64,000 nt of DNA from positions 124,001 to 188,000 of the forward strand of contig NW_024881599.1 of assembly GCF_019059575.1 (NCBI RefSeq), in the 5' to 3' direction. Position 1 is the first letter of the stretch. Each line of letters starts with the position of its first letter. The translations under genes were made by a program, and so were the position numbers. This document shows positions 26,701 through 45,135 of the stretch, one piece after another. The notes under the pieces were generated by a model that saw only the letters and a program-made list of their open reading frames with translations, had not been told where the DNA came from and searched no databases. The stretch is from Amphibalanus amphitrite. Taxonomy: Eukaryota; Arthropoda; Thecostraca; Balanomorpha; Balanidae.

Positions 26701-26759
26701 CTACCGTCTACCAGTAAAACGCCTTATAGGACGACAAACGGAGCGAGCGAGAGGGTGGG

Positions 26760-27290: not shown

Positions 27291-27341
27291 CGGTTGCTGA
27301 GTTTTTTTTTCTGAGCTAAGTCTGATGACATCATAGTAGAA

Positions 27342-27683
27342 GTGAAATGTTCCAAAAGTGCAGAGAACACTTCACTGGAAAGACTGGCTGCGTCTTCTAG
27401 TGGACTAACTATTTTTTTTTTTATTGACGACAAACTTGAGCTAAAAAAGAGTCAAGAATATTACACCCAAGTTCAGTGCCAGTTGGCTTGCACTGGTGCA
27501 AAGTTCTGTGACTTTTTTGTCTGGACACCAAACGAAACGTCATGTCAGCGCATAGCTGCTGACGAAACGTTCATCGCAAACAGACTGGAAAAAGTGAAGG
27601 CATTTTATGATGAGTTCATCGTGCCTGAAATGATAGATCCCCGCAAAGCACGACACATGCCGTTCCGTGAGCGGTCAAGGTAG
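27342..27683 (+). pseudogene. YqaJ-like nuclease C-terminal fragment
   Basis: This ORF encodes YYTQVQCQLACTGAKFCDFF, followed by VWTPNETSCQRI and a FYDEFIVPEM-type tail. That pattern is characteristic of the C-terminal half of YqaJ/lambda-exonuclease-type proteins found in many invertebrate mobile elements. The N-terminal half with the first catalytic acids is missing, and sequence upstream of about 27410 does not continue the domain. It therefore looks 5'-truncated. It lies antisense to the BEL/Pao pol, in the cargo region. I rate it a remnant of another mobile element captured or inserted there, without evidence for a function. Confidence 0.6.
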
Positions 27684-27744
27684 GAGGGAGCCCAAGGGCA
27701 AAGACGTGAAGGAAAAAAAAACATACAGTGTCCTTTTTCATAAA

Positions 27745-27870
27745 GCCTGGAATTGTAGAATTGTAGTTGTAGTTTGTAGGTTTGTACTTTCGATTGTACA
27801 AATCTGTTTCATAAAGGAAAAAGTACAATCCGAAAGCACAAACTACAATTCCACAAACGTACAACTCACA
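27745..27870. repeat. imperfect inverted repeat
   Basis: AATTGTAGTTGTAGTTTGTA and, about 70 bp on, CACAAACTACAATTCCACAA form an AT-rich hairpin. A TTTCATAAA word occurs nearby three times. This is probably a small MITE. Confidence 0.5.
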
Positions 27871-28279
27871 TTCGGCAATTGTCAGCCAAAAAAAAAAAAA
27901 ACTAGGAATCTGTTTCATAAAAAGAACGGTTCCTCTGATTTTGGGATTTCCTTGATGGAAAATACAATCGAAATCTACAACGCCCTAACCGTGTGTAGAA
28001 TTTCGGAGATGAAGTATAGGAATCAGCTTAACATTGCTAATATATTTTAATTCAATAATAACCATGCTCAGATACACAATATGTATTAATACGAGCGAGA
28101 GAGCGCAGCGAGCGAAGCGAGGTCTTTTCAATATAACGGAAAAATCTCAGTATTGAGCGGCCCGGTCCGGCCCGGCCAGTAACACTTTTGAGAGGCTAAT
28201 ATGTCAGCAACCGCTGGACCGATTGGCCTGCGGTCTTTTTAATTGGATAGTTCTGTTCCTTCTACCCCGTAATTGACTA

Positions 28280-28808
28280 CTCCTGATGCATTTCAGAGAC
28301 CCGTCATCGTCATCGTCATCAAAGGTCACCAAAGGTTTTTGGCCAATAACTCCGTACAGGAACAAGATACAGACGCGTGGATGGTCTCATTGTGTTCAGC
28401 TCGTCAAGACGCATCGAATGATATACATGATGACCTCGAGGTCACGTGACCTGAGGTCAACCTTTGACCTTGACCTTTCGAGGTCAACATATATATCATT
28501 CGATGCGGATTGCCGAGAGGATCACGATGATGCCCTTAGTTTGTTCCTATCTTGACTAATTCGAAAGTTATTCGAGAAAAACTCCATATCTAGCGCCGCC
28601 ATTTTGACTTTTTCGACCCCTGTGACGTCATCTTTGACCTGACCTGAAAATGACCTTAGTAAAAATTGTAGATCTTCACCGTGCGTATCCGATGCCGTTT
28701 ACCGCTTGTCGCTGTCTTGCTTCGTTCTCGAGATCTCAGGGGGGCGGTCATCCGCCCCCCCCCCGTCGGTGCGAAGTTGGCGCAGACCCCCGTCGGTGCG
28801 CGGGTTAA
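28280..28808. mobile_element. TTAA element 6, 5'-truncated
   Basis: The right end reads CGTCGGTGCGCGGGTTAA, preceded by the G-run/C-run hairpin and a GATGCCGTTTACCGCTTGTCGC block as in its relatives. AGGTCA/TGACCT arrays lie at about 28430-28500, flanked by inverted GCATCGAATGATAT words. No left terminus was found, so the copy is partial. It is located in the BEL/Pao cargo. Confidence 0.6.
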
Positions 28809-28849
28809 AATGTAAGAGCTGTATATACAGAAATCACGCACTGCTTTCA

Positions 28850-29685
28850 GCAGGGCACTTCGGCTGCAAACTTGAAACGGAACAGAGTATAATCTCATTC
28901 ACTCCACCCACCATCCGTATTTTCCTCCGACAACCCCGAGTTCGCTTCTGTTCCGGCAGAGTTTCACGGCCACCGGCACACGCGGGAACCCCAGACCGTA
29001 AATCACCGTGTGTTGACAGTCCCTCCCCGCCGGTCGGCGCGACTCGCGGGTTTTATTACATGGGGGAACGGCAGGGACCGAGGCGGAGACCCATACGACA
29101 TCTAGCGGCACTCCCTTGAACCAACAAAACCGTCAAAAAGTGTATATGAATCGGGCTTAATTCCAGTCACAGTTCAGATATTTCTGAAAAGTAAACTTCA
29201 TTTTCGTGTGAAGAAATGTTCTGTGCCCATTTCTATGTAGCCAGTTTTTTGTTTTATGCCTCACACAAAAATTGAAAGATGAGCAAAGTTTTACTTTCAT
29301 TTTTTGCAACATTGCAAAAAGAAAATGGAAAATCGGAGTACATAGAATTGTTGTCAACTTTGAGGAGATGCGGGTGCCATTCATTTTTTTTTGCGCCTAC
29401 TTTGAATGACATTTAATGAATTTCGGCTCAAACTTTTCAGTTTTTCCACCTTTATCGTGCAATATCAACGTGAATATTGCACGGAATCAAACAACTTGTC
29501 CAAAGTAGGCTTTGTATACCCATGGAGCAGGTACATGCCAAATTTGAGGCTAATATCTCAATCGGTTTTCAAGATATTGCGGTTTTTCACCTCCCATTGA
29601 CTTAACATTAACATCGCACCCTTAACTACGTGAACAGTGCTCGATTGTCTACCCGCGATCGTCAGAAACCCAGAAGCGAGCGTCG
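28850..29685. other. BEL/Pao cargo, no recognisable gene
   Basis: Mixed-composition sequence without a convincing ORF, RNA gene or repeat boundary. It lies upstream of the J-domain gene. Confidence 0.4.
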
Positions 29686-29836
29686 TCCCAACGGTGCCAT
29701 AAAAAACGGCCATCGCCGGCCGGGCCGGGAGGGCACGGATAGGCCTATGGGCGGATGCGGGGCTAATGGGCCACAAGGGACACCGTAAGGGTGGCACACA
29801 ACACTCGATCGGCTCAGTTACAAGGAGGAGCTCATT

Positions 29837-30069
29837 ATGTGCGCAGCTTACTTCATCCCTCCCGGTGAGGCCGGTGCCATCGCCCCGGAGTGGTCACCCG
29901 AGAGCTTGTTTGACGCCGCGGGCCAGCTGCTGTCCTCACCGGAACAGATTCTGGGCGTCAATCCGGAGGAGGATGGTCCCGAACTGGACCGGTCGGTGCG
30001 GCGCGCGGTACGGCAGCTGCAGATGACGTATCACCCGGATCGTCGAACTGGCAGCCGATTCTTGTCCAG
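29837..30069 (+). CDS. J-domain/coiled-coil protein, exon 1
   Basis: The start ATG at 29837 gives MCAAYFIPPGEAGA. About residues 33-70 form a DnaJ-type J domain: EQILGVNPEE, then RRAVRQLQMTYHPDRR with the HPD signature that stimulates Hsp70 ATPase. The exon ends at AG|GTAAGT, phase 2, and joins exon 2 (30250) in frame (R|LINIAAEWL, matching the last J-domain helix). The product is about 288 aa. It lies inside the BEL/Pao element on the strand opposite to pol, between pol and the 3' LTR. The intron survives because the gene is antisense to the element's RNA. Host-derived chaperone cofactor is the simplest reading; function in the element is unknown. Confidence 0.6.
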
Positions 30070-30249
30070 GTAAGTGTCTACTAACTACGCAGCTTATACA
30101 CTTAGCACTGTTATCGTCCATGCATCGCACGGCGAACACTCAAACTCCCGAAGGAAGGTCATTATAGTTCACTGCTTATTTCACTTGTGTGACGGTCGTA
30201 TACGAATTGTCACTCGCTCGCTCACAGTGTTCATGCTCTCTGGCCACAG

Positions 30250-30883
30250 GCTGATCAACATCGCGGCCGAGTGGCTGACCGAGCACCGGGCAGCTTACCG
30301 AGCGTGGGCGGCCAGCGAGGTGGGAGCGGCGCAGCTGGCACGTGCTGCTCTGGCTGGGCCTGCACCTCTGCGCACGCCTCTGATCGCCGCCCTCGCCGCT
30401 GAGGGGCGGCGGGCGCAGGACGAGCTGGACGCCACTGCTGCCCGCGAACGTCGGCTGCAACTGGAGCAGCAGCAACTGCGGGCCGAGCTCGCCTCCAGTA
30501 CCGCCCGAGAGGGTCTCCTGCAGAAAGAGCGTCAGCGGTTTGACGCCGAGTGCCGTCAGAGGTGCGCTGCGGCAGAGGAGGAGGTGGCCGCTATGGAGCA
30601 GACCGTGGTGGCGGCCGAGCAGGTAATTGCCCTGCTGCGCCGGCGGCTCGACCAGACCGAGGCGCACCGGCGGGCCGAGCGGCACGCTTTGGGCGCCGTC
30701 GCGGCCGCGCAGGCTGCCGAGCTGGCAGCTGCCGAAACCATCGGGCGTCTCCGGTCCTGTGCGCCTCCGACGTTGCCTCCGCTGTTGGCCGACCACCTGC
30801 GACAGACGGCTGCCGGCCACGGCAGCGGCAGCAGGGCGCGCAGGGCGGCTCGGCAGCTGTTGGGCTGGCTTGCCGAACGGTGA
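30250..30883 (+). CDS. J-domain/coiled-coil protein, exon 2
   Basis: It follows a GGCCACAG acceptor. After the end of the J domain (LINIAAEWLTEHRAAY) it encodes a long Ala/Gln/Arg/Glu-rich coiled coil with heptad-like leucines, including LQLEQQQLRAEL and VIALLRRRLDQTEAHR. The tail is basic, LLGWLAER, and stops at TGA (30881-30883). A donor-like GTGAAT overlaps the stop. Splicing to an acceptor at 30961 would replace the last residue with RAVGVVSS and stop at 30984-30986, so an optional third exon exists. I do not recognise the family beyond the J domain. Confidence 0.55.
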
Positions 30884-31194
30884 ATGTGACCGTGCCCTGT
30901 ACGCTATGCTTTGTCATTGTTACGTAATACAGAGCGACTGCCGTATACGTCTGTTTTGCAGCGCGGTAGGAGTGGTTAGCAGCTGATGATCTTGCCACTC
31001 GTCGCCCGCAATCTCCTCCTTCGTGTCCCATCACCGTAGTATTCCGTTCTACTTCATCGTCTTACTATTGCTTCTCCTCCAACGTTTGCATTTCCTCTCC
31101 TTTCTTCCCCTTTGATTTCCGGCTCATCTCCGTTTCCTCTCATCACATCCCTCCTTGACTCCTTCTCCCAACTCCTTCTTCTTCCACCTCACGA

Positions 31195-34100
31195 CTACTT
31201 GCACTCCTCCTCCAAGAAGCATATTTTGGTAGTCGGTCGCGTGTACAGCTTGCCACTGGCGGTCCGGATCTCGGCTGAGCGGACCCGGCCATCGGCCGCA
31301 GGAAACACGCGGCTGACGCGGGCCAGCGGCCACGAGCCCCGTGACATTGCTGGCTCGACCATCATCACGAGATCACCGACCTCCAGGTTGCGTCGCTCTT
31401 GATACCACTTGCTTCTCTGTGTGAGCGTCGGTACGTACTCCTTTGTCCATCGTCTCCAGACGTGTTCCGCCACGGCCTGAGATTGCTTCCACCGGCGTCG
31501 GCTGCACACGTCCCGCTCTCCCACGAGGCCTGGTGCCAGATGCCTGTGGGCGCCGCTGAGCAGGAAGTGGTTTGGCGTAAGGGCCTCGGGATCGGTCGGC
31601 TCGGAGCTGACGTAGGTGAGGGGGCGGCTGTTCACCATATGCTCCACTTCAGCGAGCACCGTCATGAGCACCTCGTCGGTGAGTGTCTGGCGACCCACAA
31701 CAATCCTCAGGGAGTTCTTCACGGAGCGGACCATCCTCTCCCACACTCCTCCCATGTGACTCGCTGCCGGAGGATTGAAGTGCCAGTCCACCTCAAACGC
31801 GCTGAGCTTCTCTGCCAGTTTCTTTTCCATGGCACGGAGCTCCGCTCTCAGTTCACGCTGGCTTCCGACGAAGTTGGTGCCGTTGTCAGAGAAGATGGCT
31901 GCTGGCTTTCCCCGTCTGGCGAAGAGGCGCCGCAGCGCCATGATGCAACTGTCTGTGTCCAGGCTGTATACAACTTCCAGATGAATTGCTCTGGTGGCCA
32001 TGCATGTGGCGATCAGCCCGTATCTCTTTTCAGTTCTGCGAAAACGCTTCACGAACAGAGGCCCGAACATATCTACCCCGGTACTGCTGAAGGGCCGGGT
32101 GGCGTCAAACCTTGCTGCGGGCAGACTGGCCATTCGCGGGGGCCTCGGGAGTGCTCTGAGCCGCCGGCAGGTGGGGCACCCCTGCAAGAGTTGTTTCACT
32201 GCAGCTCTTCCCCTCACGACCCAGTACTTCTGTCTGGTTTCGTTCAATGTCTGCTCAACGCCTGCATGACCGCAGCTCTCATGCCTTTGCAGGATGACAA
32301 GGCGGGTGACTTCGCCTCGAGGAGGAAGTATGACCGGATGCCGGGCATCTTCTGGGATTGGAGCGTTTTCCAATCGTCCGCCGACTCTCATCAGCCCATC
32401 ATCGCTGCTGTACGGCGACAGCGGCAGCAGTCCGCTCCTTTTAGGCAGCTCATTTCCAAGCGCCAGGCTGCGTGTTTCTTCGGGATAGGCGGCTCTTTGT
32501 GCCCGTCTTAGGATGAGGACTTCAGCTTCGTCCAGCTCTTCAGACTTCAGAGGGCCAGTGCGGCGTGTCTCGCCGTTCGACGCACGTGCGGCTGCGTTGT
32601 GAGCGAAGCGTTTCATCCACGCCACCACTCGACGGTACTTCAGCCAGGATGAAAACTTGCTGGGGTCAGGCTCCAGCTGGTCGTCGTCATGCACTACACT
32701 GGCCAGGACGCTCGGCCTCACTTCCTCCATGTCATCCATCAGCGGTGCAGGTGGCGTTTGCGCCGGCCAGTTCTCTTCGTCGTCGCTCAGGAACGCTGGG
32801 CCGCTCAGCCACCGGCTCTGGGACGTGAGTTCGGAGGCAGCCAGTCCTCTCGAGCAGTCGTCGGCTGGGTTCATCTTTCCTGGGACGTGTCGCCACGTGC
32901 CGCCTGCAGTCAACTCCTTCACTTCAGCTACCCGGTTAGCCACGAAGGTGTGGAACCTCCTTGACTCATTTGAGAGGTACTGCGGGACCACGCTGCTGTC
33001 TGACCAGAAGAACATCGCATCGGGCTTGCGCGAGAGCTCCTCCACCACGGTACTGGCGAGTCTGGCTCCCAGCAGAGCGGCCTGTAGCTCTAGCCGTACG
33101 ATAGACAGCTTTTTCAGGGGCGCCACCCTGTTCTTGGCTATCAGGAACCTGCACTGGTGCATGCCGCTGGTTGTAGTTGACCTCATGAAGATGACAGCTC
33201 CGAAGGCTGCTTCTGATGCATCGCAAAAGACGTGGAGCTGTTGACATTTCACGTCCTCCTCCGGTCTGATGCACCTTGGGATGCTGATGCTCTGCAAGCA
33301 TTCGGAATCGCGGAGCCAGTCGCGCCACTCTTCCATCTCTGGTTCAGGCAGGGTGTCGTCCCATGCCAAATGGTGGGACCACAGACGCTGCATCATGAGT
33401 CTGGCCTTTACCGTGAACGGTGAAGCTATCCCAAGCGGATCGAATACGGAGGCTGTTCGGCTCAGGACTCCCCGCTTCGTCAGCGGTTCATTGGCTTCCC
33501 GGAGACGAAAACCCAGGGTGTCTTGGTTCTCGTTCCAGACGACTCCTAGAGCCTTCTCAGCTGTAGCCGTCGGCGCACCCAGGCAGAGGTTACCGTCCGG
33601 ATTGGCCAGCTCGTTGGTTGAAGTGCCTTCCAGAACTCCGCGTCTGTTGCTCCTCCATTTAGTCAACTTGAATCCTCCTTCAGCGAGGGCTCGGGTGGCC
33701 TCTTGCTTCACATGCTTGGCGGTGTTCACATCCACGTCAGACAGCAAGAAGTCGTCCATGTAGAAGCTTCGTTGGATCTGCTCGGGTTCTCTGGGAGGTG
33801 CTGTCCCTTCTTCATTCCAGTGATCTTGGAGGGCTCTTCTGAGGACATAGTTGGCAATGGCTGGTGACGATCGAGCTCCGAAGATCAGTACCTGCATTTG
33901 GTACATATCCGGTGGCCGGTTGCTGTCCATATCTCGCCACAGGAAGCTCAGGGCGGGCTGGTCGTCTTCGTTGATCATTATTTGATGGTACATCTGCGTG
34001 ATGTCTGCTGCGACTGCCACAGGGCCCTCCCGGAAGCGGAGGAGGACACCTGGCAAGCTTTGCAGCAGGTCAGGACCGGTTAGCAGCTTCCCATTCAGGG

Positions 34101-36444
34101 AGGTTCCGCGGTAAGCCGCAGCGGCGTCGAAGACGACCCGTACCTTTCCTGGTTTATTGGGATTGGTGACCGCGTGGTGAGGCAGGAGCCACCGCCTTTT
34201 GGTAGGAGCCGAAGCCTCTTCAACCGTGAGCTTTCTGGCATGTCCTGCGGCGATGTAGGCTTCAATCGTGGCCCTGTATTTGACGGCTATGTCCGGCTGC
34301 TTCTCCAGCTTTCTCTCTGTGGCTTGAAGTCGCTTCATGGCCAGTACTTTGTTGTTTGGAAAACTGGCATCGCTCTCCCTCCACAGCAGGCCCGTCTTGT
34401 ATCGTCCTTCGTCTTTGGTTGTATTCTCTTCCAGCATCTTGAAAGCCCTTTCATCCTCCCTTGATCGGGGAGCTGTCGCGCGGTATCTAGTCCCGAAAGA
34501 CTCTGTAGACCACCACTCATTAACAGCCGCAGACAACTCGTCCTCCGGCTCCGTCAGTAGCAGCTTCGTGGACATAACTTGGCGCAAGCTGCTGGGAACA
34601 ATGGCCGAGACTGATCCTGTCAGTGCCCACCCGAGGTCGGTCTTCACGGCCACTGGTTGATTGGGGCGTCCCACACGCGTCTCTCTTTGCAGGACTGCTT
34701 CCAAGACGTTGGCTCCGATAAGCAGTTCCACCTGCCCCCCGTCGTACTGTGGGAACTCAAGTCCGCGAAGATGTTCGCATCCTTTGAGCTGACTTCTTGC
34801 TACCACAGGGGCAGTCACGTTGAGAGCTGGGACGGACCACACTTCAGGGATTTTGATGTCATTCTTCTTTCCATCAGGATCCAGTGTGCTTATGGTCAGT
34901 GAGACGCGCTGCGAGGGCTTCTGGACGCCACTTCCTTCCACATTCTGAATTCGGAGTTGGCGACAGTGTCCGGTGATCCCAAGGTCGCGCAGAACGTCTT
35001 CACGGCAGAGGGATGTTTGTGCCCCGGTATCGAGCAGCGCAAGAACCTCTTTCGAGCCTCTGGTGCCATGGACTTGGACCCGAACTACCTGAAGCAGGGT
35101 GTCCGTCTCCTCGTTCAGTGAAGCCGCCACGAACGGCGCGCTGTTACTGCCTTCTTCCTTGCGAGGTTTGTCGGGTACCGCTTGTCCTTTGTTGCCATGA
35201 AGCAGGGGATGATGCTTGAACTTGCAGCCTTCGATACCGCACCTTCTGGCCACCCTGCACCTTCGGCTCCAGTGCCCTTTTCCGAGACACGAGAAGCACA
35301 GTGTCTCAGCGCTCACGATATTCATTCTTGCTTCGGTAGTTTTGGCCTTGAACGTCGGGCAGTCTGGGAGCTTGTGCGTGTCCTCACACACCACACATGC
35401 CCGTCGGGATTCTGGATCTGCCGAAGAAGTGACGCCTGTCGCGAATGCCGACTTTCTTGCCGTCCCACCGTCCCTGGACTTGGCTGCTTCTGTCCTGTCG
35501 TTTGTCACAAACTGGCTGCCAGAGTGGCTAAGGACATCGACTTCTATCTTCAACCATGAGCTAAACGCCTCCAGGGTGGGTCGCACTGGTCGGAGCCTAT
35601 GCACTTCTCGGCCCCACTCTCGACCAAGCTCGACTGGTAGCTTCTCCACCACTCTTCTCAAGTTTTCGCTGCTCGCTAGGTCGCTTGAGTAGCCCAGATT
35701 ACGAAGAACTGTCACCGTGTTGTGGACGACTGAGTAGAATTGCTCCATGGCTGGGAGATCCATGAGAGATGACGGGGTGCAGGTGAAGACCTTCCGCAGG
35801 TGGGCTTGTATGATGTCTTCGTCTCTGCCGAAGCGTTCCTGCAAGGTTTTGAGAGCCTCCTGGTAGAGTTCCCCGTCGAAGAGCATGCCGTTGATTGCTT
35901 GTGCAGCTGGTCCCTCCACCGCATTCTGAAGGTGGGCCATGCGCTCGGAGTCTGACAACGACGGCTGATTATGCACCAAAGCTTTAAACAGCCCAATCCA
36001 GCGTGGCCACTCTTGAGCGCTTCCTCGGAAGGTCGGCAGGGTCAGACGTGGGATGCTCTTCACAAACGCCGATTGTTGATGAAACAAAGGCTGTTGCTCA
36101 GAGCGAACATCTGTCACCCAGTTAGCGGGATGCTGTCCGTTCTTGCTGCTCGGCAGCTTGGCGCTGTTTGCGGCTGTCTGCTGCTCAGGTTGCAGTGTTC
36201 GGCGCTCTTCTAGTGGCGGTGGTCTACGCCGAGACAGGTCGACCGTTACTGGACCCTCCGCCACATCACACTCCCTGGGGATCAGAGCGACGTTCTCGCC
36301 ATCGAAATCGTGCCGTCTCTCCCATTCGAGATCGCTCTCAGCCGCCTTGCAGAGACGTGCCTTCACAAGTGCTCGTTCAACCTCTTCCTCCATAGCCTTC
36401 TCCTCCAGCATGTCCTCTTGCTCTTTCGTCTGCCGCTTCAGCAT
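31195..36444 (-). CDS. BEL/Pao Pol (DUF1759-PR-RT-RH-IN)
   Basis: A 1749-aa intact frame. In order, it has a charged coiled region and a DUF1759-type Gag-like segment (about residues 128-260, with LPTFRGSAQEWP). A Cys/His-rich zinc-knuckle region (CVVCEDTHKLPDC, CFSCLGKGHWSRRC) follows. Next come an aspartic protease with LLDTGAQTSLC (about 470), reverse transcriptase with FYMDDFLLSD (about 900), and RNase H with HVFCDASEAAFGAV. Last are an integrase with an HHCC-type zinc module, GVDMFGP, FSDNGTNF and MGGVWERMVR catalytic segments, and the C-terminal DUF5641-like WYQERRNLEVGDLVMM region usual for BEL/Pao. No lesion is seen. It overlaps the upstream ORF by 7 nt in the -1 frame. Confidence 0.92.
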   Translation of the reverse strand: MLKRQTKEQEDMLEEKAMEEEVERALVKARLCKAAESDLEWERRHDFDGENVALIPRECDVAEGPVTVDLSRRRPPPLEERRTLQPEQQTAANSAKLPSSKNGQHPANWVTDVRSEQQPLFHQQSAFVKSIPRLTLPTFRGSAQEWPRWIGLFKALVHNQPSLSDSERMAHLQNAVEGPAAQAINGMLFDGELYQEALKTLQERFGRDEDIIQAHLRKVFTCTPSSLMDLPAMEQFYSVVHNTVTVLRNLGYSSDLASSENLRRVVEKLPVELGREWGREVHRLRPVRPTLEAFSSWLKIEVDVLSHSGSQFVTNDRTEAAKSRDGGTARKSAFATGVTSSADPESRRACVVCEDTHKLPDCPTFKAKTTEARMNIVSAETLCFSCLGKGHWSRRCRVARRCGIEGCKFKHHPLLHGNKGQAVPDKPRKEEGSNSAPFVAASLNEETDTLLQVVRVQVHGTRGSKEVLALLDTGAQTSLCREDVLRDLGITGHCRQLRIQNVEGSGVQKPSQRVSLTISTLDPDGKKNDIKIPEVWSVPALNVTAPVVARSQLKGCEHLRGLEFPQYDGGQVELLIGANVLEAVLQRETRVGRPNQPVAVKTDLGWALTGSVSAIVPSSLRQVMSTKLLLTEPEDELSAAVNEWWSTESFGTRYRATAPRSREDERAFKMLEENTTKDEGRYKTGLLWRESDASFPNNKVLAMKRLQATERKLEKQPDIAVKYRATIEAYIAAGHARKLTVEEASAPTKRRWLLPHHAVTNPNKPGKVRVVFDAAAAYRGTSLNGKLLTGPDLLQSLPGVLLRFREGPVAVAADITQMYHQIMINEDDQPALSFLWRDMDSNRPPDMYQMQVLIFGARSSPAIANYVLRRALQDHWNEEGTAPPREPEQIQRSFYMDDFLLSDVDVNTAKHVKQEATRALAEGGFKLTKWRSNRRGVLEGTSTNELANPDGNLCLGAPTATAEKALGVVWNENQDTLGFRLREANEPLTKRGVLSRTASVFDPLGIASPFTVKARLMMQRLWSHHLAWDDTLPEPEMEEWRDWLRDSECLQSISIPRCIRPEEDVKCQQLHVFCDASEAAFGAVIFMRSTTTSGMHQCRFLIAKNRVAPLKKLSIVRLELQAALLGARLASTVVEELSRKPDAMFFWSDSSVVPQYLSNESRRFHTFVANRVAEVKELTAGGTWRHVPGKMNPADDCSRGLAASELTSQSRWLSGPAFLSDDEENWPAQTPPAPLMDDMEEVRPSVLASVVHDDDQLEPDPSKFSSWLKYRRVVAWMKRFAHNAAARASNGETRRTGPLKSEELDEAEVLILRRAQRAAYPEETRSLALGNELPKRSGLLPLSPYSSDDGLMRVGGRLENAPIPEDARHPVILPPRGEVTRLVILQRHESCGHAGVEQTLNETRQKYWVVRGRAAVKQLLQGCPTCRRLRALPRPPRMASLPAARFDATRPFSSTGVDMFGPLFVKRFRRTEKRYGLIATCMATRAIHLEVVYSLDTDSCIMALRRLFARRGKPAAIFSDNGTNFVGSQRELRAELRAMEKKLAEKLSAFEVDWHFNPPAASHMGGVWERMVRSVKNSLRIVVGRQTLTDEVLMTVLAEVEHMVNSRPLTYVSSEPTDPEALTPNHFLLSGAHRHLAPGLVGERDVCSRRRWKQSQAVAEHVWRRWTKEYVPTLTQRSKWYQERRNLEVGDLVMMVEPAMSRGSWPLARVSRVFPAADGRVRSAEIRTASGKLYTRPTTKICFLEEECK

Positions 36445-37139
36445 GTCCTCTTGCTCTCTCTCTTCTGCCTTTCTCGTTCCTTTCTTGCCCTGAGATGCTT
36501 CAGCTCGAGGGCCTTCATCTCTGCAGTTATTTCAGCCTCCCTTGCCACTGTTGAGGCCTTTGAGCATTTTGAAGCCCGGGACCCACTGACCTTACTTCCG
36601 TCTCGCCGTGGAGCGAGCGACATCGGCTTCCCCTCTGTCTCGGACGCTGAGCAGCCTGAGGACTTCAACTTGATGGCATCTTCGATAGCCTTGACTGTTG
36701 AGGCGTGCCTGGCAGTCATCCGGGTGGCATACTCTTCTGATTCTTCTATCTCACTCACTTCCTGCACCTTCTCCGCGTAATCATCATTTATCTTCAGGAC
36801 GCCGTCCAGCGCCGTGTTCAGGGCCTCAAGCCGCTTCCTTAGTGCCTCTTCGTTCGCACGGCAAGTGATTTGTGTCTCAGCCGCGTTACAGGCACGGGTG
36901 AACTGGGCGGCCTTGCGGCCACGCTGCAGCTTCAGGACCTTCAGCTCACTGGTGGCTGTTCCTTCCTTCACTCCGTCATCGACCCTGTTCTGCGGCATCG
37001 CCTTCCCGTTGCTTTCCTCTGTTGAGTCTTGAGGCGTCAGGGCTCCCAACTCTCCAGCAGCACGTCCATTCTCTGCTCCAGCGCCGTCGCCGCTCCGTAG
37101 CATCATCTCTCTGTCGTCTCCCTCCTTTGAATCTTCCAT
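36438..37139 (-). CDS. BEL/Pao N-terminal Gag-like ORF
   Basis: A 233-aa ORF starting MEDSKEGDDREMMLRSGDG, predicted as charged coiled coil. It lies between the 5' LTR and the long Pol frame. The longer ORF continues in the -1 frame. Its upstream reading (AEEREQEDML) is open and resembles the downstream KEQEDML repeat, so either -1 frameshifting or an indel around 36440-36500 would join them. BEL/Pao elements normally have one Gag-Pol frame, so the split is noteworthy. Confidence 0.7.
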   Translation of the reverse strand: MEDSKEGDDREMMLRSGDGAGAENGRAAGELGALTPQDSTEESNGKAMPQNRVDDGVKEGTATSELKVLKLQRGRKAAQFTRACNAAETQITCRANEEALRKRLEALNTALDGVLKINDDYAEKVQEVSEIEESEEYATRMTARHASTVKAIEDAIKLKSSGCSASETEGKPMSLAPRRDGSKVSGSRASKCSKASTVAREAEITAEMKALELKHLRARKERERQKRESKRTC

Positions 37140-37284
37140 TAACCTTCACTTAGATCCTGCAGGGGGCGAGTTGATACCACTTGACGAACACTGGCGAGGG
37201 TTGCTACTGCGGGCTGTGCCTCTGGACCTCTTCCTCTGACTTCTCACCTCTGGCCGGGATCATCCGGCCCGGAGGACCAGAAAA

Positions 37285-38475
37285 TGTTGCAGACGTTCTT
37301 CAACTTGACTCAGTGGACTGTATAACTGTGTGTGTGTTGACGTCTCGCATCATTTGGTGTGGCGACCGGGGCCTGACAGGATATAGGTTGATATGGTAAT
37401 GAGGCGAAATTGGGAATTTATAATATAAGAAGGGGATGCTATATGAATGGATATAATTTTGGATCAAGGTTTAAGAGCACTCTTTTCAGAGCGACAAAGG
37501 AACCCTCTTTATAGAGAGCATGTTAAGACCTAAAAGGGTATGCAGAGCCCTCTTTTCAGAGAGACAAAGGAACCCTCTTTACAGAGAGCATGTTAAGACC
37601 TAAAAGGGTATGCAGAGCCCTCTTTTCAGAGAGACAAAGGAACCCTCTTTACGGAGAGCATGTTAAGACCTAAATATAGAGCCCTCTTTACAGAGAGACA
37701 AAGGAACCCTCTTTTCAGAGAGCAAGAGGTATTAGGAAAATAAGGAATCAGATAGGAATGATAAGTAGACCCGGTCACTGTGAAATGAAAGACTGTGCGA
37801 AGACTGTGTGCCACTCTCCCCGTGCTCTTATCCGCCGCTGCACTCCACTCTTCACCATTCACAAACACAAGATTCTTCCGAACTGGTGAGTATTGCAGAT
37901 GGCGAATAGGCGATGACAACACAGTATCACTGACAAGAAGAGTTGGCCAGAGAGAGCGAGGCAGTGCTCTCTCGGCGCCGAAAAGTAAAGAAGTGAGAGC
38001 GAGGGTTGCTCCCGCCCCGTTTATGTACTGGGTCGGGAGGACACAGATGGCGACGGAAGTGATGAAATAACAAAGAAGCTACACACTACACAGCGTCCTG
38101 GTAACCCTACCACGCGGTCGGCACATGTCGGCCTAACGGCTCCGACCCGCTGGGGACACAGTTCCACGTGCGACGCCACGCCAGCCCACCCCCCTCCCCC
38201 CGGGTCAGTCCCTCCGGTAACAGCGCATCCTTTCATACCACTGCAGCTGTAAGACACGGTCGCCGGGAGAGAGGAGCGTCCCGTCACCCGATCACTGCCA
38301 TAAACTCTCGCGCGGACGGCCCATCTGCCGGCGGCGTGGCGGGGCATGGGGGGGGGGGGGAACGGCGGCGGCGCGGCGCGGCGCCGGCCGGGACCACGAG
38401 TCGGCCCGACCCGGCAGCTACAATTGGGGCCGACAATGAGCCACAACATTAAATGCGTGCAGTTTGTCGGCAACA
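37285..38475 (-). repeat. 5' LTR of BEL/Pao element
   Basis: 1191 bp, nearly identical to 24943-26133; a handful of substitutions are visible, such as GGGGCC/GGGACC and GAGGCAG/GAGACAA. Internal sequence after it (minus strand) reads TTTTCTGGTCCTCCGGGCC. The TGG 5 nt inside could begin a tRNA primer-binding site. It is followed on the right by the target duplication ATTAT. Confidence 0.93.
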
Positions 38476-38480
38476 ATTAT

Positions 38481-39009
38481 ATTCTGATATCTGCCATAAA
38501 TACGATAGGAAACTCCGCGTCATAAATCATATCACGCACAACATACATCACCGTGTACAGTTCTCTCAACTCTTCTTTCCATGACCACTTATAAACTGCA
38601 AAGTGCACAGTGACCCCTAATTATTCATCGCCATCCTCCACAACCTATATCCACAACCTAAAAAGGCTCGTGGATATTAACAACGCGTAACTGCGACTAA
38701 AAGCTCCCACGAAATTAAAGCCGGCAATATCGTATTGATATTGCCGTATGGATATATCCATATATGTCGTATGGATATATATGAGCTGATTGCACCGAAG
38801 AAATCAACGGGAAGATGCGTTGAATTGCAACTGTATGAAGTCGGCCCATGAGAAGTAATCAAGTTTCTCTTGGGATTGCTATTGTCCGGATGGTGTAGCT
38901 TTCTTCGCTCTTCGTTTTGAATATTTGTTCGACATCTTTTACTCCAGTGCAAGATTATGCTCGGCCACTCTTTTCCAAGACTTCATTTAATAACTTGAAC
39001 TCAAGCGCA
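38481..39009 (+). other. 5' region of the PHD-RT-USP element or intron
   Basis: AT-rich sequence upstream of the PHD-RT ORF. It contains a palindrome GGCAATATCGTATTGATATTGCC-like block (about 38722-38745) and two TCGTATGGATATAT copies. The left boundary of the retroelement could not be fixed, because no copy of its 3' flank (TATCCTGGCTC) occurs here. Confidence 0.35.
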
Positions 39010-42000
39010 ATGACCCGGAGATTAACCAGCAAACATGTCACATACCCTTGCGGCGCATGCAGCCGGGGTGTCGGGAGCGGCTCAGTTCAATGCCACCAAT
39101 GTAGCCGGTGGTTCCATGGCCGCTGCGCAGTCCTCAACCGGTCGAATTTGCTGCGACTCGCGAAGCTCCACACGGAATGGAGATGCACCACCTGCCAAAA
39201 TACTCCTGTCGCCCAGCCCTGCGACCCGCAGCGTCCTACCTCCAACGGCGAGAACAGCCCACAGCCGCCTCGCGACGCCTCAACACCAGCCTCCTCGCGG
39301 TCACCGACACCGACCAGCCAGCCAGCGCGAGACGCCTCACCACCAGCCTCCTCGCCGTCACCGACACCGACCAGCCAGCCAGCGCGAGACGCCTCACCAC
39401 CAGCCTCCTCGCCGTCACCGACACCGACCAGCCAGCCAGCGCGAGACGCCTCACCACCAGCTTCCTCGCCGTCACTGGTTCCGGTCAGCCAGCCACCTCA
39501 CGACGCCAGAGACCAGCCGTCCACCCAGAGTCCTGCTGAGTGTGTCGCCTGCTCCATTCGCAGCCGCAGGAAGACAACAATCACCTGCGGCTCCTGTAGG
39601 CAACTATGGCATACTTCCTGCGCTAAGGTCCCTGCAAGGAAATCCCATCACCTCCCTGTTTGGCATTGTCCTGCATGCCTCGGCCGCGAGTCAGCCCAGC
39701 TCTCTGACGCTTTCAACGGAAGAGAGGTTCCAGACACTGGCGTCGTCGAAGGACTGGCAACTCTAAGGAGAAGCACTAAACTAATCTCGCGAATACCTAA
39801 AGGCGTAAGGCCCCTGGTGGCCGATGCCCTATGCAGCGCCTTAGAGGATGCCCTTAAGCTACGCACAATCTGCGCGTGGTGGACCTTCCTGTCTTTCGCG
39901 TTCTTCGCGCTACGCACACCAGGAAAAGGCGATAATAATGTCAGTGCCGCAGCGAGCATCAGGCAGCAGCTCTCCAGCCCCAACCAAACCATGACACCAA
40001 ACCTGCTTCCCGAACCACCAACAAATGACTCAGCACGAGAACATCAAAAGCCTGCCACTGACGCCCTGGCCCGTCGGATCCTCGGGAAATGTGCAGATGG
40101 CGACATCCGGGCGGCCCTAAGGCTACTGACCTCAGACGATACAGTTGCCGAGCCTGACGCCGAAGTAATCGCCGAGCTAATGCTGAAACACCCAGCAGCT
40201 CCCAAGGACGAGCTTCTGCCGCCACCGCCCGCCCCATCAGACCCAGGGCCGCTCACGGTGACGCCGGAGGAGGTGGAGGCCGCTATCAACTCGATGCCTC
40301 CGGGATCATCAGCAGGCCTAGACGGCATCAGGCCGCTACATCTACGCCAGCTTATATCCAGGGAGGCGGCTGAGAGCGGCCGCCGTCTTTTGCACTCTTT
40401 GACGGTACTCACCAACCTGGTGCTGGCCGGTGAGGTGCCGGATTGTGCCAGGGACGCCCTTTTCAGCGCCTCACTATGCGCACTCAGGAAGAAGAGCGGC
40501 GGATTGCGGCCCATTGCAGTCGGGAGCGTCTACCGACGCCTGCCATCCCGCATCGGAGCACGCTTCGTGGCAGACAGCCTTGGTGCCGAACTCCGTCCTG
40601 TCCAGCTCGGGGTAGGAACGTCCCTGGGCTGCGAGGCGGCGGTCCATGCAACGCGCAGTTTCATTGAAGCCAGCCGACAGTCAGCTGCTCCACACGTGCT
40701 GGTCAAACTTGATGCGTCAAATGCTTTTAACACGGTGCGGCGCGACGTCTTCTTGACCCGCATTAGGGAGCGATGTCCGGAGGTGTACTACCTAGCCTAC
40801 CAGGCCTACAGCTCACCCAGCCCACTCATCATCGGAGGGCAGACCATCGCTTCGGCCTGCGGTGTCCAGCAAGGCGACCCGCTCGGACCGGCCGCGTTTG
40901 CTATCGCCATTGACTCCTGTGCCAGAGCAGTGTCAGCACCTCTGAACATCTGGTACTTGGACGATGCAACGCTGGCCAGTCCAGCCAGCGCGGTCGCTGC
41001 TGACATCGCAACACTTCCAACAGCGCTGGCAGCCGCTGGTCTCTCACTGAACGCGGCCAAGTGTGAGGTGGCCTTCATTGGCGCCGAAGATTCGGACCAC
41101 CGCCACGCTGCCATCAGCGCCATCTGCTCTGCGCTGCCTGACGTCAAAGAGACTGAGCTCACAAACCTATCTCTGCTTGGCTCTCCCCTGACCGACGGCA
41201 GCATAGGAGCAGCAGGGGAGGCAGCCTCTGCTATGGTGCAACGCCTCTGCACCCGGCTGCGCGAGCTAGACAGCCACACTGCGGTGTTTTTCTTGGCGCA
41301 CCACGTATCGGCACCGCGTCTGACGTACCTGCTGCGCTCCGCACCGGCGTTCAAAGCCCCACACGTACTCCAGGCTACTGACGAAATGGTGCGCAGCACA
41401 CTAGAAGCGGTCTGCAACGTGGCCATAAACCCTGCGGCATGGGAGCAGGCGTCGCTTCCAGTGAAGTTCGGCGGCCTGGGCATCCGGTCAGTCGAGGCAC
41501 TGGCGCTACCAGCGTACATTGCGTCGGTAAACGCAGCACGCCCCCTCATCCGTTCCATCTGTCCGAGTGTGACTGATGAACTCTCAGACACCTTGGAGAC
41601 CGCAGTCAGCGCGTTCCTTCATCGCACAGGGGTGGACCGACAGCAGCTGCCGGACGGTGAGCTGGTCAGTAGTCAGCGCGCGTGGGACACCGTCGCCTGT
41701 ACGGTGGTCCAAAGTCGCCTACTGGTACCAGCCAACCAGATCGACCGAGCTCGGCTCATCGCCGCCGGCCAGCCGCACACAGCGGCCTGGATCCAGGCGG
41801 TGCCGGTGCCGAGTCTCGGGCTTCACCTCGACGACGAAACCGTCCGCGTCGCTGTGGCCCTGAGACTCGGCGCCCCGGTTTGCGAGCCGCATCGGTGCCG
41901 TCTGTGTGCGCGCCCCGTCACCCCACTGGGACATCATGGCCTCTCCTGCCAGAAAAGTGCGGGTCGCCACTCGCGTCATGCCCACTTGAACGACGTGGTG

Positions 42001-42735
42001 CGTCGCGCTCTCTCCGGCGCTGGCTTTCCCGCCATTCTGGAGCCAGTCGGCCTCGACCGGGGCGACGGCAGACGACCGGATGGCATCACCGTCTTCCCCT
42101 TCCGCGAGGGCAAGTGTCTGACGTGGGACACGACCTGCGTCGACACTTTCGCCGACCACATAGCGGTGGAGTCCGCACTGAAACCGGGTGCAGCTGCAAG
42201 GCAGGCCGAAGAGCGAAAGCGGCAGCGTTATGCGGACCTAGCCAGGAGGTATAGCTTTGTTCCGGTGGCACTGGAGACAACCGGTGTCTATGGTCCGGCC
42301 GCCGCCGCTTTCGTCCAGGACCTGGGGAGACGCCTGGCAACCTGCACGGGTGAGCGTCGCGAGACGGAGTGGCTGCGACAGCGGCTGTCCGTGGCCATCG
42401 CTCGTGGCAACGCGGCCTCCGTCCTCGCCACCGCTCCCCAATCTGGCATAGAACAAGCAGGCCAAACCCGCAGGGCTGCCTCCACCGCTGGGAGCAACCC
42501 AGGGACGACGCGCCGGTGGCCGCGGAGCCACGCGGTAACGGCGGCTACGCCATCGGCTAGCTGTGCGCCTGAGGTCGAAACCAGCGGCAAGAGGAGCACA
42601 AGAGCCACGCCGCCCAAGGCAGATTCTCCGACTGAGATCAACCTGGGCAACTCGTGCTACCGGCGCGGCCTGGTCAACCTTGGGAACACGTGCTTCATGA
42701 ACACCGTGCTACAGGCGCTGTTCCATTCAGAATAG
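39010..42735 (+). CDS. PHD-RT-endonuclease retrotransposon ORF, 3' fused to USP
   Basis: ATG at 39010, with the frame open upstream to 38917; 1241 aa to TAG at 42733-42735. It has two PHD-like zinc fingers (about residues 14-63, CGACSRGVG...WFHGRC; about 178-225, CVACSIRS...HTSCAK), separated by Pro/Ser-rich 19-aa repeats. Reverse transcriptase spans about residues 430-690 and includes GLRPIAVGSVYRRL, LDASNAFNTV, GVQQGDPLGP and IWYLDDATLA. A CCHC-type finger (CRLCARPVTPLGHHGLSC, about 960) and a restriction-like PD-(D/E)xK endonuclease (RRPDGITVF, LTWDTTCVDT, about 1020-1045) follow. These are R2/NeSL-like non-LTR features. The last ~40 codons before TAG no longer belong to that family; they encode GLVNLGNTCFMNTVLQALF, the Cys box of a ubiquitin-specific protease. 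Confidence 0.85.
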   Translation: MTRRLTSKHVTYPCGACSRGVGSGSVQCHQCSRWFHGRCAVLNRSNLLRLAKLHTEWRCTTCQNTPVAQPCDPQRPTSNGENSPQPPRDASTPASSRSPTPTSQPARDASPPASSPSPTPTSQPARDASPPASSPSPTPTSQPARDASPPASSPSLVPVSQPPHDARDQPSTQSPAECVACSIRSRRKTTITCGSCRQLWHTSCAKVPARKSHHLPVWHCPACLGRESAQLSDAFNGREVPDTGVVEGLATLRRSTKLISRIPKGVRPLVADALCSALEDALKLRTICAWWTFLSFAFFALRTPGKGDNNVSAAASIRQQLSSPNQTMTPNLLPEPPTNDSAREHQKPATDALARRILGKCADGDIRAALRLLTSDDTVAEPDAEVIAELMLKHPAAPKDELLPPPPAPSDPGPLTVTPEEVEAAINSMPPGSSAGLDGIRPLHLRQLISREAAESGRRLLHSLTVLTNLVLAGEVPDCARDALFSASLCALRKKSGGLRPIAVGSVYRRLPSRIGARFVADSLGAELRPVQLGVGTSLGCEAAVHATRSFIEASRQSAAPHVLVKLDASNAFNTVRRDVFLTRIRERCPEVYYLAYQAYSSPSPLIIGGQTIASACGVQQGDPLGPAAFAIAIDSCARAVSAPLNIWYLDDATLASPASAVAADIATLPTALAAAGLSLNAAKCEVAFIGAEDSDHRHAAISAICSALPDVKETELTNLSLLGSPLTDGSIGAAGEAASAMVQRLCTRLRELDSHTAVFFLAHHVSAPRLTYLLRSAPAFKAPHVLQATDEMVRSTLEAVCNVAINPAAWEQASLPVKFGGLGIRSVEALALPAYIASVNAARPLIRSICPSVTDELSDTLETAVSAFLHRTGVDRQQLPDGELVSSQRAWDTVACTVVQSRLLVPANQIDRARLIAAGQPHTAAWIQAVPVPSLGLHLDDETVRVAVALRLGAPVCEPHRCRLCARPVTPLGHHGLSCQKSAGRHSRHAHLNDVVRRALSGAGFPAILEPVGLDRGDGRRPDGITVFPFREGKCLTWDTTCVDTFADHIAVESALKPGAAARQAEERKRQRYADLARRYSFVPVALETTGVYGPAAAAFVQDLGRRLATCTGERRETEWLRQRLSVAIARGNAASVLATAPQSGIEQAGQTRRAASTAGSNPGTTRRWPRSHAVTAATPSASCAPEVETSGKRSTRATPPKADSPTEINLGNSCYRRGLVNLGNTCFMNTVLQALFHSE
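39278..39505 (+). repeat. 57-bp in-frame repeats between the PHD fingers
   Basis: About four tandem 57-bp units, GACGCCTCACCACCAGCCTC..., each encoding DASPPASSPSPTPTSQPAR. The first and last units are degenerate and the frame is preserved. Confidence 0.9.
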
Positions 42736-44352
42736 CTGCGCGGCGAGGTGCTGGCGGCGCGGCCGTCCCCCTCCCGCCCGCACCTGGCGGCACTACAGCG
42801 AGTGTTCGCCTTCCTGGCGTTCTCGGAGCGGCCCGTCTACAGCCCGGGCGAGTTCCAGCGGACCGCTCTGCCGCCCTGTTTTGAGCGGGGCCGGCAGCAC
42901 GACTGCTCAGAGTTCCTCCGAAACTTTCTGGACGCCTTGCATGAGGAGGAGCGGTCTCCGGCAGCTTCCCCTGCCGCACCGGTCGCGGTCCCGCCGCCAG
43001 TCCCTCCAGCTGCTGCCGCCGCACGCGCCAGAGACGACTCCAGCGTGCCGGGAGCAGCGGCGATGGAGCGGCCGCGGTCCCGGCGCCGGCACCGTTCCTG
43101 CGACACTGCGCGGGCCGGCGGGAGATCGCCGCCGGTGCAGCTCTCTGACCTGGCCAGCGACGATGTGGTGATGGCAGAGCCGGCCGGAGACAGGGCGGAG
43201 CGGACTGCCGCGGAGGGGGAGCCCACAGAGTCACCGGACACTGGCGGGACGCAGCAGACTGATCCGGACGGCCAGGCGCAGGGCGAGGTGGTGTGTGAGC
43301 ACGGTACTGGCGATGCCGGAGCTGAGGAGCCGCCCGCCGGCCTGGTCCGTCGGCTACTGACCGGACGGGCTGAGACTACGTTCACCTGTCTCACGTGCGG
43401 CGGCGCTTCGCGCCACGAGAACAGCGTGACGGACCTGCACCTGGCTCTGCCGGAGTCGGTGACACGGTCACTGACGGCAGCTGCCGCGGGCGCCGGGGGA
43501 GCCGAAACTGCGCCGGCGTTCGGCCCCGCGCCGCGGCCGGTCGGTTGGCGGGGCACGCCACCGACGGACAACCAGACAGAGATCGAGCTAACCGTATCGC
43601 AGCTGCTGCTCGACTACCTGACGCCGGAACGACTGTGCGGTGATAACCAGTATTACTGTACCAAGTGCACCGGCCTGCGGGACGCCGAGCGCCAGCTGCG
43701 ACTGCTCTCTCCGCCAGCCAACCTGGTCGTCTCCTTGATGAGGTTCGCGGTTGACCGGCGCACCGGTGCACGCCGCAAGGTTCTCACCCCTGTGGAGCTC
43801 ACCGAGTGGCTGACAGTGCCGCTAGCCACCGGCCCGCCCGCCCAGTACCGGCTGTATGCAGTGATAGTCCACGCGGTCCATTCGCTGGACGCTGGCCACT
43901 ATTTCTCATTCTGTCGCGCCTCCGGTGGCGGTGGTATTGATGGGATGGACGATACCGGCTGGTGGCGGCTGGACGATACGTCAGCGGTGCCGGTGCCGGC
44001 GGCCACCGCGCTGGGCCGGCCGCGCCGCTCCACCGAGGCAGCCTACACGCTGCTGTACCGGCTGACCGATGCAGCGGTGGCGGGGGCGGCGGGCGGCTTG
44101 TCGGCGCTGGCCGCCCTGCCTGGCCCGCTGCGAGCTGCCGTGGAACGAGACAACGCCGTTTTCCGACGGGAGCGGCAGAGCCGGACGGCCGGCGCACTGC
44201 CGATGGTCCACGACGGACGGCCGCCGCCGGGTGCCGGCTGCGGCGGCGACAGCGGGCCCGGCGTCCCTCGGATGCGTCAGCCGACGACGAGGCGAAGCGG
44301 TCCAAGCAGGAGAACGGCCACAACGGCGTCAACGGCCAGGCGGCGCCCCTGA
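42646..44352 (+). pseudogene. USP35/38-type deubiquitinase domain (retrocopy)
   Basis: A USP catalytic domain runs in the same frame as the RT ORF, broken by one TAG at 42733-42735. The Cys box is NLGNTCFMNTVLQALF (catalytic Cys 42691-42693). After the stop come RVFAFLAFSERPVYSPGEF and HDCSEFLRNFLDALHEEE, a long insert, a CLTCGG...YYCTKC zinc ribbon, and the His box LDAGHYFSFCR (His 43897-43899). The Asp is in WWRLDD (43972-43974). Spacing and motifs match USP35/USP38. The domain has no introns and ends in a poly(A) tail, so it derives from a processed mRNA. A second lesion is likely near 44250: the acidic PSDASADDEAKRSKQENGHN tail reads in another frame. Both the fused and the free versions would remove ubiquitin if expressed intact; actual expression is unknown. 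Confidence 0.8.
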
Positions 44353-44466
44353 TATGCGTCCGCCCCGACCTAGACCCGCTGCCCCGCCCTTCTGATCTGG
44401 TTCACCCGTGCATGATGTCTCGCCGCATCATTTTATTGTGCTGTTAAATTTACCTGTTTTGGTGTA

Positions 44467-44498
44467 AATAAACGCAGTCAGGGCTTTCAAAAAAAAAA
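44467..44498 (+). terminator. poly(A) signal and genomic A-tail
   Basis: AATAAA at 44467-44472 is followed 16 nt later by a run of ten A (44489-44498). This is the mark of target-primed retroposition of a polyadenylated RNA. The psq exon-3 donor begins only 13 nt further, at 44511. Confidence 0.85.
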
Positions 44499-44511
44499 TA
44501 TCCTGGCTCAC

Positions 44512-44724
44512 CTGAGTGTCCGCTAGCGGCGCCTGCCCCCCGACCGGTGCGTCGTCCCGCTCGGCCTGCCAGGGCGCGCGGCTGGCCAGGGCCGCGGCCG
44601 CCGCCGGCCGGTGCTCGGTGCGCCGCGCGCCCTCCGCCTCTGCCTCCTCCGCCTCCTCCTCGGAGCTGCTCTCTCCGTCTGCCGGCAACCGCACCAGGCC
44701 GCGGATCTGCAGACGCTCCGCCGC
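44512..44724 (-). CDS. BTB-pipsqueak gene, exon 3
   Basis: 213 nt, phase 0 at both ends, with a GCGTCAG acceptor and GTGAGC donor. It encodes AAERLQIRGLVRLPADGE, the end of the BTB fold. A Glu/Ser-rich acidic stretch (SSSEEEAEEAEAEG) and linker ending PLADTQ follow. The RT-USP retroelement lies just inside the intron that starts at 44511. Confidence 0.82.
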
Positions 44725-45065
44725 CTGACGCAGGCAACGCAGCGGACGCAGACCGTCAGAGATGGGAGAGGTGGAATACGACAGACGAGGTGCAGTCGCG
44801 AATAACTTTTTTAATAAATTTAGCTCGAATGTTTGAATGAACGGATTCACAGCGCCGGAGCCCACGCTAAGCAGAGCTTGTTGCGCAGACCCCGACCCCT
44901 ACCGTCCGATCGCGCAATTCCGGGTATCGGGAGAATTAAGATGCCATAGTTTAACATGCCCTTCAAAGCCGGACACGGCCTGTCCCACTCAACTGACTTC
45001 AACTGGCTGCGGCTGCTCCCACCAACCGCAGACCATACCCGTCAGGAGTCTCGAATATCGAGCGC

Positions 45066-45135
45066 CGGAGCGTCTCGAACCCGGGCTCTCACTACCGGGA
45101 GTCCAATGCTCTACCAACTGAGCTACGGGACAGGC
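45066..45135 (-). mobile_element. tRNA-derived SINE-like sequence
   Basis: On the minus strand the segment reads GTAGCTCAGTTGGTAGAGC (A-box region), then CCCGGGTTCGAGAC (B-box region), at normal tRNA spacing. The anticodon arm does not pair and the acceptor stem is absent. It is therefore a tRNA-like SINE head or tRNA pseudogene rather than a working tRNA. It lies in the psq intron between exons 2 and 3. Confidence 0.6.

Follow-up and report, generated by a model that had tools for sequence, protein, structure and literature searches.

A barnacle retrotransposon family with a probable C-terminal exchange slot for ubiquitin-specific proteases

Among the described mobile elements closest to the one reported here, the NeSL and Utopia elements contain an Ulp1 peptidase (PMC4640811), and OTU or Ulp1 domains occur in the DNA transposons Ginger1, Mutator and Helitron (PMC2836005), according to the accessible parts of the two reports. 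The same part of the latter also gives one precedent for peptidase family C19, a Trichomonas transposase_11-peptidase C19 protein, whose partner is a DNA transposase (PMC2836005). Among the papers listed by searches combining retrotransposon and ubiquitin-specific protease (USP) terms, in which the subscription literature is thinly covered, none describes a USP as part of a retrotransposon. An OTU domain is reportedly present in the Dualen element. Here, we describe an element at positions 39010-44498 of a 64-kb stretch of the Amphibalanus amphitrite genome (the window; the element is hereafter the window copy, or WIN), in which a PHD finger, a reverse transcriptase (RT) and a putative restriction-like endonuclease (RLE) are followed in frame by a USP. 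The sequences compared make it very probable that an RT-USP family exists and that the type of USP turns over within it.

The frame of the window copy is open from 39010 to 44350 except for a single TAG, in agreement with the original prediction, and its C-terminal part belongs, as also predicted, to a deubiquitinase of the USP35/38 type, the best solved relative being USP35 (5txk, E 1.3e-39). The end of the open reading frame (ORF) ahead of the TAG corresponds to positions 1-21 of the UCH profile (PF00443), with E 5.3e-5 and 23.4 bits in the whole protein (cut-off, 23.9) and E 1.9e-7 and 31.4 bits when searched as a 49-residue piece; the frame beyond the TAG corresponds to positions 49-254 (E 8.7e-23, 81.7 bits against the cut-off of 23.9). 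The catalytic Cys, His and Asp positions had been considered intact. The three boxes are indeed present, but the domain is broken by the TAG behind the Cys, and the window USP departs from the consensus of its relatives P0001, P0002 and P0015 (sequences are cited by P number) at further positions, one of them just ahead of the GHY of the His box. Because the TAG lies 14 codons past the catalytic Cys, the window copy would be unable to make a whole USP without read-through.

This stop is absent from all four comparable copies (P0001, P0002, P0015 and P0022). P0001, P0015 and P0022 share the whole linker and junction with the window, and P0002, whose gene model lacks the stretch upstream, shares only the last part of the linker; the junction is not present in P0003 and P0005. 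Several copies with the same junction had been proposed as the sign of a mobile chimera, and this is what was found. Given four copies without the stop and a shared junction, the window copy is a decayed member of a mobile family, and the TAG is a defect of this copy, distinct from the RT-USP junction. The USP part, used as a query, yielded 14 matches, those from A. amphitrite being P0002 (99% identity), P0003 (88%) and P0005 (98%), and a search with the RT+RLE part added P0015 (99%), P0021 (64%) and P0022 (88% over 65% of the query) from this species. The A. amphitrite matches of the USP35/38 type lie on contigs of 133, 703, 148, 618 and 210 kb, some of which possibly represent one locus in different assemblies. 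Matches on several contigs, together with the A-run of the window copy, are what is expected of multiple insertions of a non-long terminal repeat (non-LTR) element. No host USP35/38 of barnacles turned up in the protein searches.

With the RT+RLE part as the query, 390 proteins passed, and the following counts refer to the 120 matches listed. PF00443 was called in 22 of these, whose RTs are as little as 46% identical to that of the window, and further joins of the RLE end to a USP came from other protein searches (P0001, P0007, P0009 and P0134). Pfam was run on 21 proteins, namely 20 USP carriers from the listed matches (P0002 and P0022 left out) and P0007; UCH lay behind the RT/RLE part in all of them, with the profile end reached in 12 and 9 stopping short. 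In the window and these 21 relatives, no Pfam match to Ulp1 was obtained; the N-terminus, where present, was PHD-like, and UCH was C-terminal. Three proteins nearly fill their contigs and are thus probably single ORFs: P0033 (1806 aa, 5418 of 6003 bases), P0068 (1395 aa, 4185 of 4607) and P0089 (1611 aa, 4833 of 5448). Clusters comprised 3 (P0068), 4 (P0089), 5 (P0016), 6 (P0021) and 31 (P0047) members, some on contigs of 178-618 kb. A relative was encoded by none of 23 pattern matches on viral contigs.

Four USP types were assigned by PDB searches: USP8 for P0016 (2e-90; next USP15, 4e-75), USP2 for P0068 (3e-91; next USP21, 2e-72), USP35 for P0089 (3e-44; next 7e-18) and USP30 for P0033 (4.5e-48; next family 2.5e-15). 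A fifth type (P0039, P0043 and P0047), which we take to be USP37-like, has no decisive PDB match, P0047 being best matched by USP28 at 5e-15 and P0043 having none at 1e-12. The remaining carriers were typed by comparison with the PDB-typed ones, the most distant of its type being P0017 (40% to P0089). USP8 was rejected as a two-row group, as P0024 is a 65-residue fragment with almost equal USP8, USP15 and USP2 scores; another fragment, P0074, was not typeable, and neither of the two entered the firm count. Every domain read to its end has the Cys and His boxes, and each but that of P0033 also the Asp/Asn box; P0033 has Ser-Asp there, as does human USP30 in the alignment. In an AlphaFold2 (AF2) model of P0134 (USP2 type), built from 57 rows, the RLE part and the USP were confident, the linker (271-485) was mostly below 50 in predicted local distance difference test (pLDDT), and the USP fold matched human USP2 with a template modelling (TM) score of 0.91 (target length). 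A 16-row model of P0007 (USP35/38 type) was of low quality (pLDDT 48) and was set aside.

The distribution of these types was compared with RT phylogeny on two trees, the first with 121 RT+RLE rows (P0001, P0002, P0009 and P0014 were left out of the 125 matched because of low coverage) and the second, more careful, with 42 chosen rows and 29 of 39 inner branches starred. As rows labelled 'none' may include truncated ORFs, the typed rows were relied on. The 23 typed rows with six labels required 12 changes on the second tree. For the 21 firmly typed rows with five types, at least 10 changes of type were needed on the RT tree, where the least possible number is 4. A single RT clade was rejected by the approximately unbiased (AU) test for the USP35/38 type (p 1.5e-6), USP2 (1e-104) and the fifth type (3e-42); it was also rejected for USP8, a result that depends on the uncertain fragment P0024, and the two USP30 rows form a clade. 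Unrelated USPs are joined to closely related RTs in WIN and P0016 (RT identity 79%), P0023 and P0025 (83%), and P0016 and P0047 (83%). The reverse incongruence is also seen: WIN and P0017 are 70% identical in RT and 46% in USP, versus 50% and 65% for WIN and P0007.

Alignability was lost just behind RGNAA/RGNTA in all three pairs compared, whose members have different C-termini (P0023/P0025, P0016/P0015 and P0074/P0081). The linkers beyond this point span 39-242 residues in the carriers examined and, close pairs such as P0031/P0033 apart, show no relationship on inspection by eye. Two other tails sit behind the RLE of USP-less relatives, each in more than one RT group: among 248 sequences, a set that takes in host USP2 proteins, a DPELARYL-like tail was found in nine (P0018, P0028, P0029, P0034, P0054, P0057, P0063, P0075 and P0078) and a PWGELFGARPK-like tail in five (P0030, P0035, P0036, P0048 and P0083). 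Pfam named neither in the eight proteins scanned. As these tails occupy the same C-terminal position, the slot is not exclusive to USPs. The linker of the window also holds a second Cys-box-like stretch, INLGNSCY (NLGNSC at 42640-42657), 36 nt upstream of the real box, which resembles the Cys box of the fifth USP type in the RT relative P0047; it may be the scar of a replaced fifth-type USP, and a local duplication is as likely.

Regarding the origin of the USP modules, the original prediction had invoked capture of a host mRNA at the RNA level. A host-type deubiquitinase does stand in frame in a retroelement, but a single 3'-transduction event does not account for an architecture that recurs in combination with five or more USP kinds. 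The USP2-type domains across RT lineages are 68-76% identical (51-53% for P0068), P0025 is 59-64% identical to 23 host USP2s, and other element rows reach up to 67% identity to the host protein P0136; these identities mildly favour exchange over fresh capture. In a USP2 tree of 7 element rows and 23 arthropod host rows, chosen from more than 100 and including no barnacle host USP2, the element rows stood apart from the host rows on long branches, and a single element clade was not rejected (p 0.289). Such a clade is thereby neither rejected nor shown, so that one capture followed by exchange and several captures are both possible. R2 jumps between RNA templates in vivo, according to the accessible part of one report (PMC3414825), and we infer exchange rather than repeated capture in each case, with template switching as the route.

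The features of the window copy are listed in Table 1. Its start ATG is matched in P0016 and P0119, whose N-termini are similar to that of the window ORF from the same Met. The RPDG...LTWD stretch is presumably an RLE signature; the RPDG...WD region is conserved in aligned pairs and well folded in the P0134 model, and RLE was named by no Pfam or PDB match. The USP part has no introns, and the AATAAA and genomic A-run claimed for the end of the element are both in place. No exact repeat of at least 9 bases of the 3' flank (44481-44560) was found within 38000-39200 as a target-site duplication, the 5' end not being placed; a single 8-base match there was judged to be due to chance.

Table 1. Positions of the features of the RT-USP element within the window
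Feature	Position	Strand	Basis
PHD-RT-RLE part of the element ORF, 1241 aa	39010..42732	+	Open frame
PHD finger, aa 14-62	39049..39195	+	PF00628, E 4.8e-8
Pro/Ser-rich 57-bp tandem repeat, between both PHD-like clusters	39262-39507		
Second PHD-like zinc cluster, aa 164-206	39499..39627	+	zf-HC5HC2H, E 6.9e-4, weak, under curated cut-off
Reverse transcriptase core	40486..41073	+	RVT_1/PF00078, E 4.9e-15
YLDD motif of RT ([FY]xDD type)	40951-40965	+	Motif search
RLE motif stretch RPDG...LTWD (putative)	42073..42129	+	Motif position; conserved in aligned sister pairs
RGNAA, approximately where the similarity of RT relatives with different USPs ends (apparent exchange boundary)	42403..42417	+	
Linker, same in P0001, P0015 and P0022	42418..42666	+	
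USP (peptidase C19) catalytic domain, USP35/38 type, split by TAG	42667..44058	+	PF00443; 5txk
Cys box NLGNTCFMN	42676-42702	+	
Catalytic Cys codon, inside NLGNTCFMN	42691..42693	+	Computed from Cys box position
In-frame TAG	42733..42735	+	
His box	43891..43911	+	
Asp box	43960..43977	+	
Stop closing the USP frame	44350..44352	+	
AATAAA polyadenylation signal	44467..44472	+	
Genomic A-run, 10 bases, 3' end of the insertion	44489..44498	+	

We propose that intact members encode one protein with the order PHD-RT-RLE-flexible linker-USP, that at least five kinds of host USPs were captured at the C-terminal slot, and that the modules would then have moved between RT lineages, probably by switching of the RT between RNA templates during target-primed reverse transcription. 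The USP would most likely act in cis: tethered to the RNA-protein and integration complex of the element, it would remove ubiquitin there or close by, and the complex would thereby be spared degradation or dislodging until target-primed reverse transcription is done. The interchanged USPs have differing roles in their hosts. Since the USPs that replace each other differ widely in host specificity, selection probably favours deubiquitination of a generic kind, with the remainder of the protein directing it to its targets. Selection for deubiquitination itself appears quite likely. It is reasonably probable that the C-terminus is an interchangeable slot, loaded, unloaded and reloaded with deubiquitinases whose sources were at least five families of host USPs, as well as with further short tails, in a phage-like modular evolution of long interspersed nuclear elements (LINEs) with deubiquitination repeatedly selected. 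Protection in cis is a tentative suggestion for the mechanism. The explanation as a whole, comprising a decayed copy, a non-LTR PHD-RT-RLE-linker-USP family, a C-terminal exchange slot and a USP acting in cis, is the one that we favour on balance.

Several results weigh against this explanation. USP types are not distributed at random on the RT trees: with seven labels including 'none', 17 changes were counted on both trees (shuffled means, 22.6 on the first and 20.9 on the second), and as few as 17 were obtained in none of 200 label shuffles for each tree, which indicates that USP types are partly inherited vertically. Near-copies such as WIN, P0015 and P0022 add to this clustering, and none was seen for USP2 (5 changes in 5 rows) or the fifth type (3 changes in 3 rows). 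PF00443 was not called in 98 of the 120 listed relatives, some of which end right after the RLE, some of which may be cut and some of which have other tails; the USP is thus not essential to every lineage. Most family members are ORFs from ENA or 'lgn' contigs, and P0017, P0022, P0023, P0025, P0027, P0031, P0033 and P0081 are single-sequence clusters, which could therefore be lone assembly chimeras. The USP2 domains of the elements resemble one another only modestly more than they resemble host USP2. Finally, the results fit cis protection no better than chromatin or immune targets.

An action of the USP on chromatin is the first of the alternatives, and we regard it as unlikely. The PHD finger would read histone marks, and integration would become easier as the USP deubiquitinates repair factors or H2A/H2B at the target. 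A PHD finger is located at the N-terminus of the window copy and many relatives, the fold neighbours of the P0134 USP include USP21 and Ubp8 structures bound to ubiquitinated nucleosomes, and the accessible part of one report suggests a DNA-repair role for transposon-borne Ulp1/OTU domains (PMC2836005). However, the same slot is filled by USP30 and USP8 types, for which no chromatin function is known in their hosts. It is rather improbable that the USP acts in trans against host restriction, disarming ubiquitin-dependent silencing or innate immunity, with the swapping of types reflecting an arms race; the turnover of USP types is high, but simple interchangeability would account for it too.

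Passive hitchhiking, with host mRNAs frequently copied by the RT into the 3' part of the element and no benefit from the USPs, would explain why some relatives have quite unlike short tails in this slot and why many listed relatives lack a USP call. We consider it a poor prospect nonetheless, as at least five kinds of USP and no other enzyme family were found in the tails (Pfam; 8 further relatives and the 21 carriers), and the catalytic boxes are kept across deep divergence. An assembly or gene-model artefact in most members is very improbable: the metagenome-type contigs, the several single-sequence clusters and the gene-model errors in P0005 and P0135 speak for it, but the frame of the window copy runs on without a break other than the TAG, P0033, P0068 and P0089 leave little room for introns on their contigs, and other clusters have 3-31 members, some on the long contigs mentioned above. 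A single accidental chimera, whether the element RNA joined one USP35/38 mRNA once, as a one-off retroposition, or landed by an older USP retrocopy, would agree with the poly(A) end and the intronless USP of the window, but it is refuted, unless the records are all artefacts, by a junction found whole in three more copies and in part in a fourth and by divergent families with other USPs.

Next to the RT-USP element, a BEL/Pao LTR element occupies 24943-38475 on the minus strand, with a pol ORF at 31195-36444 (Peptidase_A17); its LTRs (24943-26133 and 37285-38475) are 99.66% identical over 1191 bp, indicating a young insertion. On the other side, the end of the A-run lies 13 nt from a 5' splice site, CAG/GTGAGC, in a gene on the minus strand, BTB-domain-like by eye (44489-44865), and the RT-USP element is apparently antisense in an intron of this gene, nearly touching the exon. 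Near the splice site, 45060-45135 on the minus strand is tRNA-like by eye and perhaps a tRNA-derived short interspersed nuclear element (SINE); ARAGORN called no tRNA in the window.

The family documents repeated capture and turnover of enzymes in a LINE-type element, beyond a lone chimeric pseudogene, and natural relatives with a different deubiquitinase or none offer a ready-made comparative experiment on the role of the peptidase in a retrotransposon. The element origin also explains some 'USP38' and 'USP2' names in barnacle annotation. P0015 and P0021, annotated USP38 and USP2, are element proteins, and the A. amphitrite gene models P0005 and P0135 seem to fuse two host genes, ZSWIM8 and one with an LCAT domain, with USP copies of element origin.

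Compared with known systems, the family resembles host USP35/38, USP2, USP8 and USP30 in the catalytic domain and triad boxes, and differs from them in that the domain sits behind RT-RLE and the host N-terminal parts are not found there. To R2 it is linked by RT homology, R2 proteins being the closest solved RTs for the window ORF (PDB 9nl3, 9dou and 9nl2; E 1.2e-10). R2 has a single ORF with RT and RLE and is not known to contain a PHD or USP. In term searches, 'ubiquitin' and 'PHD' did not appear in the text of a 2026 R2 survey (PMC13188248), nor did 'ubiquitin' in that of a cockroach R2 paper (PMC7650587). R2/R1 hybrid and template-jump elements are likewise chimeras that non-LTR RTs produced, in some cases by jumping to other RNAs, but those in the accessible part of the report consist of non-coding pieces, with no exchanged enzyme (PMC3414825). 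Ginger1 shares a mobile-element deubiquitinase or deSUMOylase that is C-terminal and of two peptidase kinds, whereas Ginger1, Mutator and Helitron are DNA transposons with no RT partner, and USP2, USP8, USP30 and USP35 types are not mentioned in the accessible part of that text (PMC2836005). In NeSL and Utopia, the peptidase has an Ulp1 fold and is N-terminal, and the accessible part of the report describes no swapping of peptidase kinds; in common with the present family, these are RLE-type non-LTR elements with a cysteine peptidase of the ubiquitin/SUMO class in their ORF (PMC4640811).

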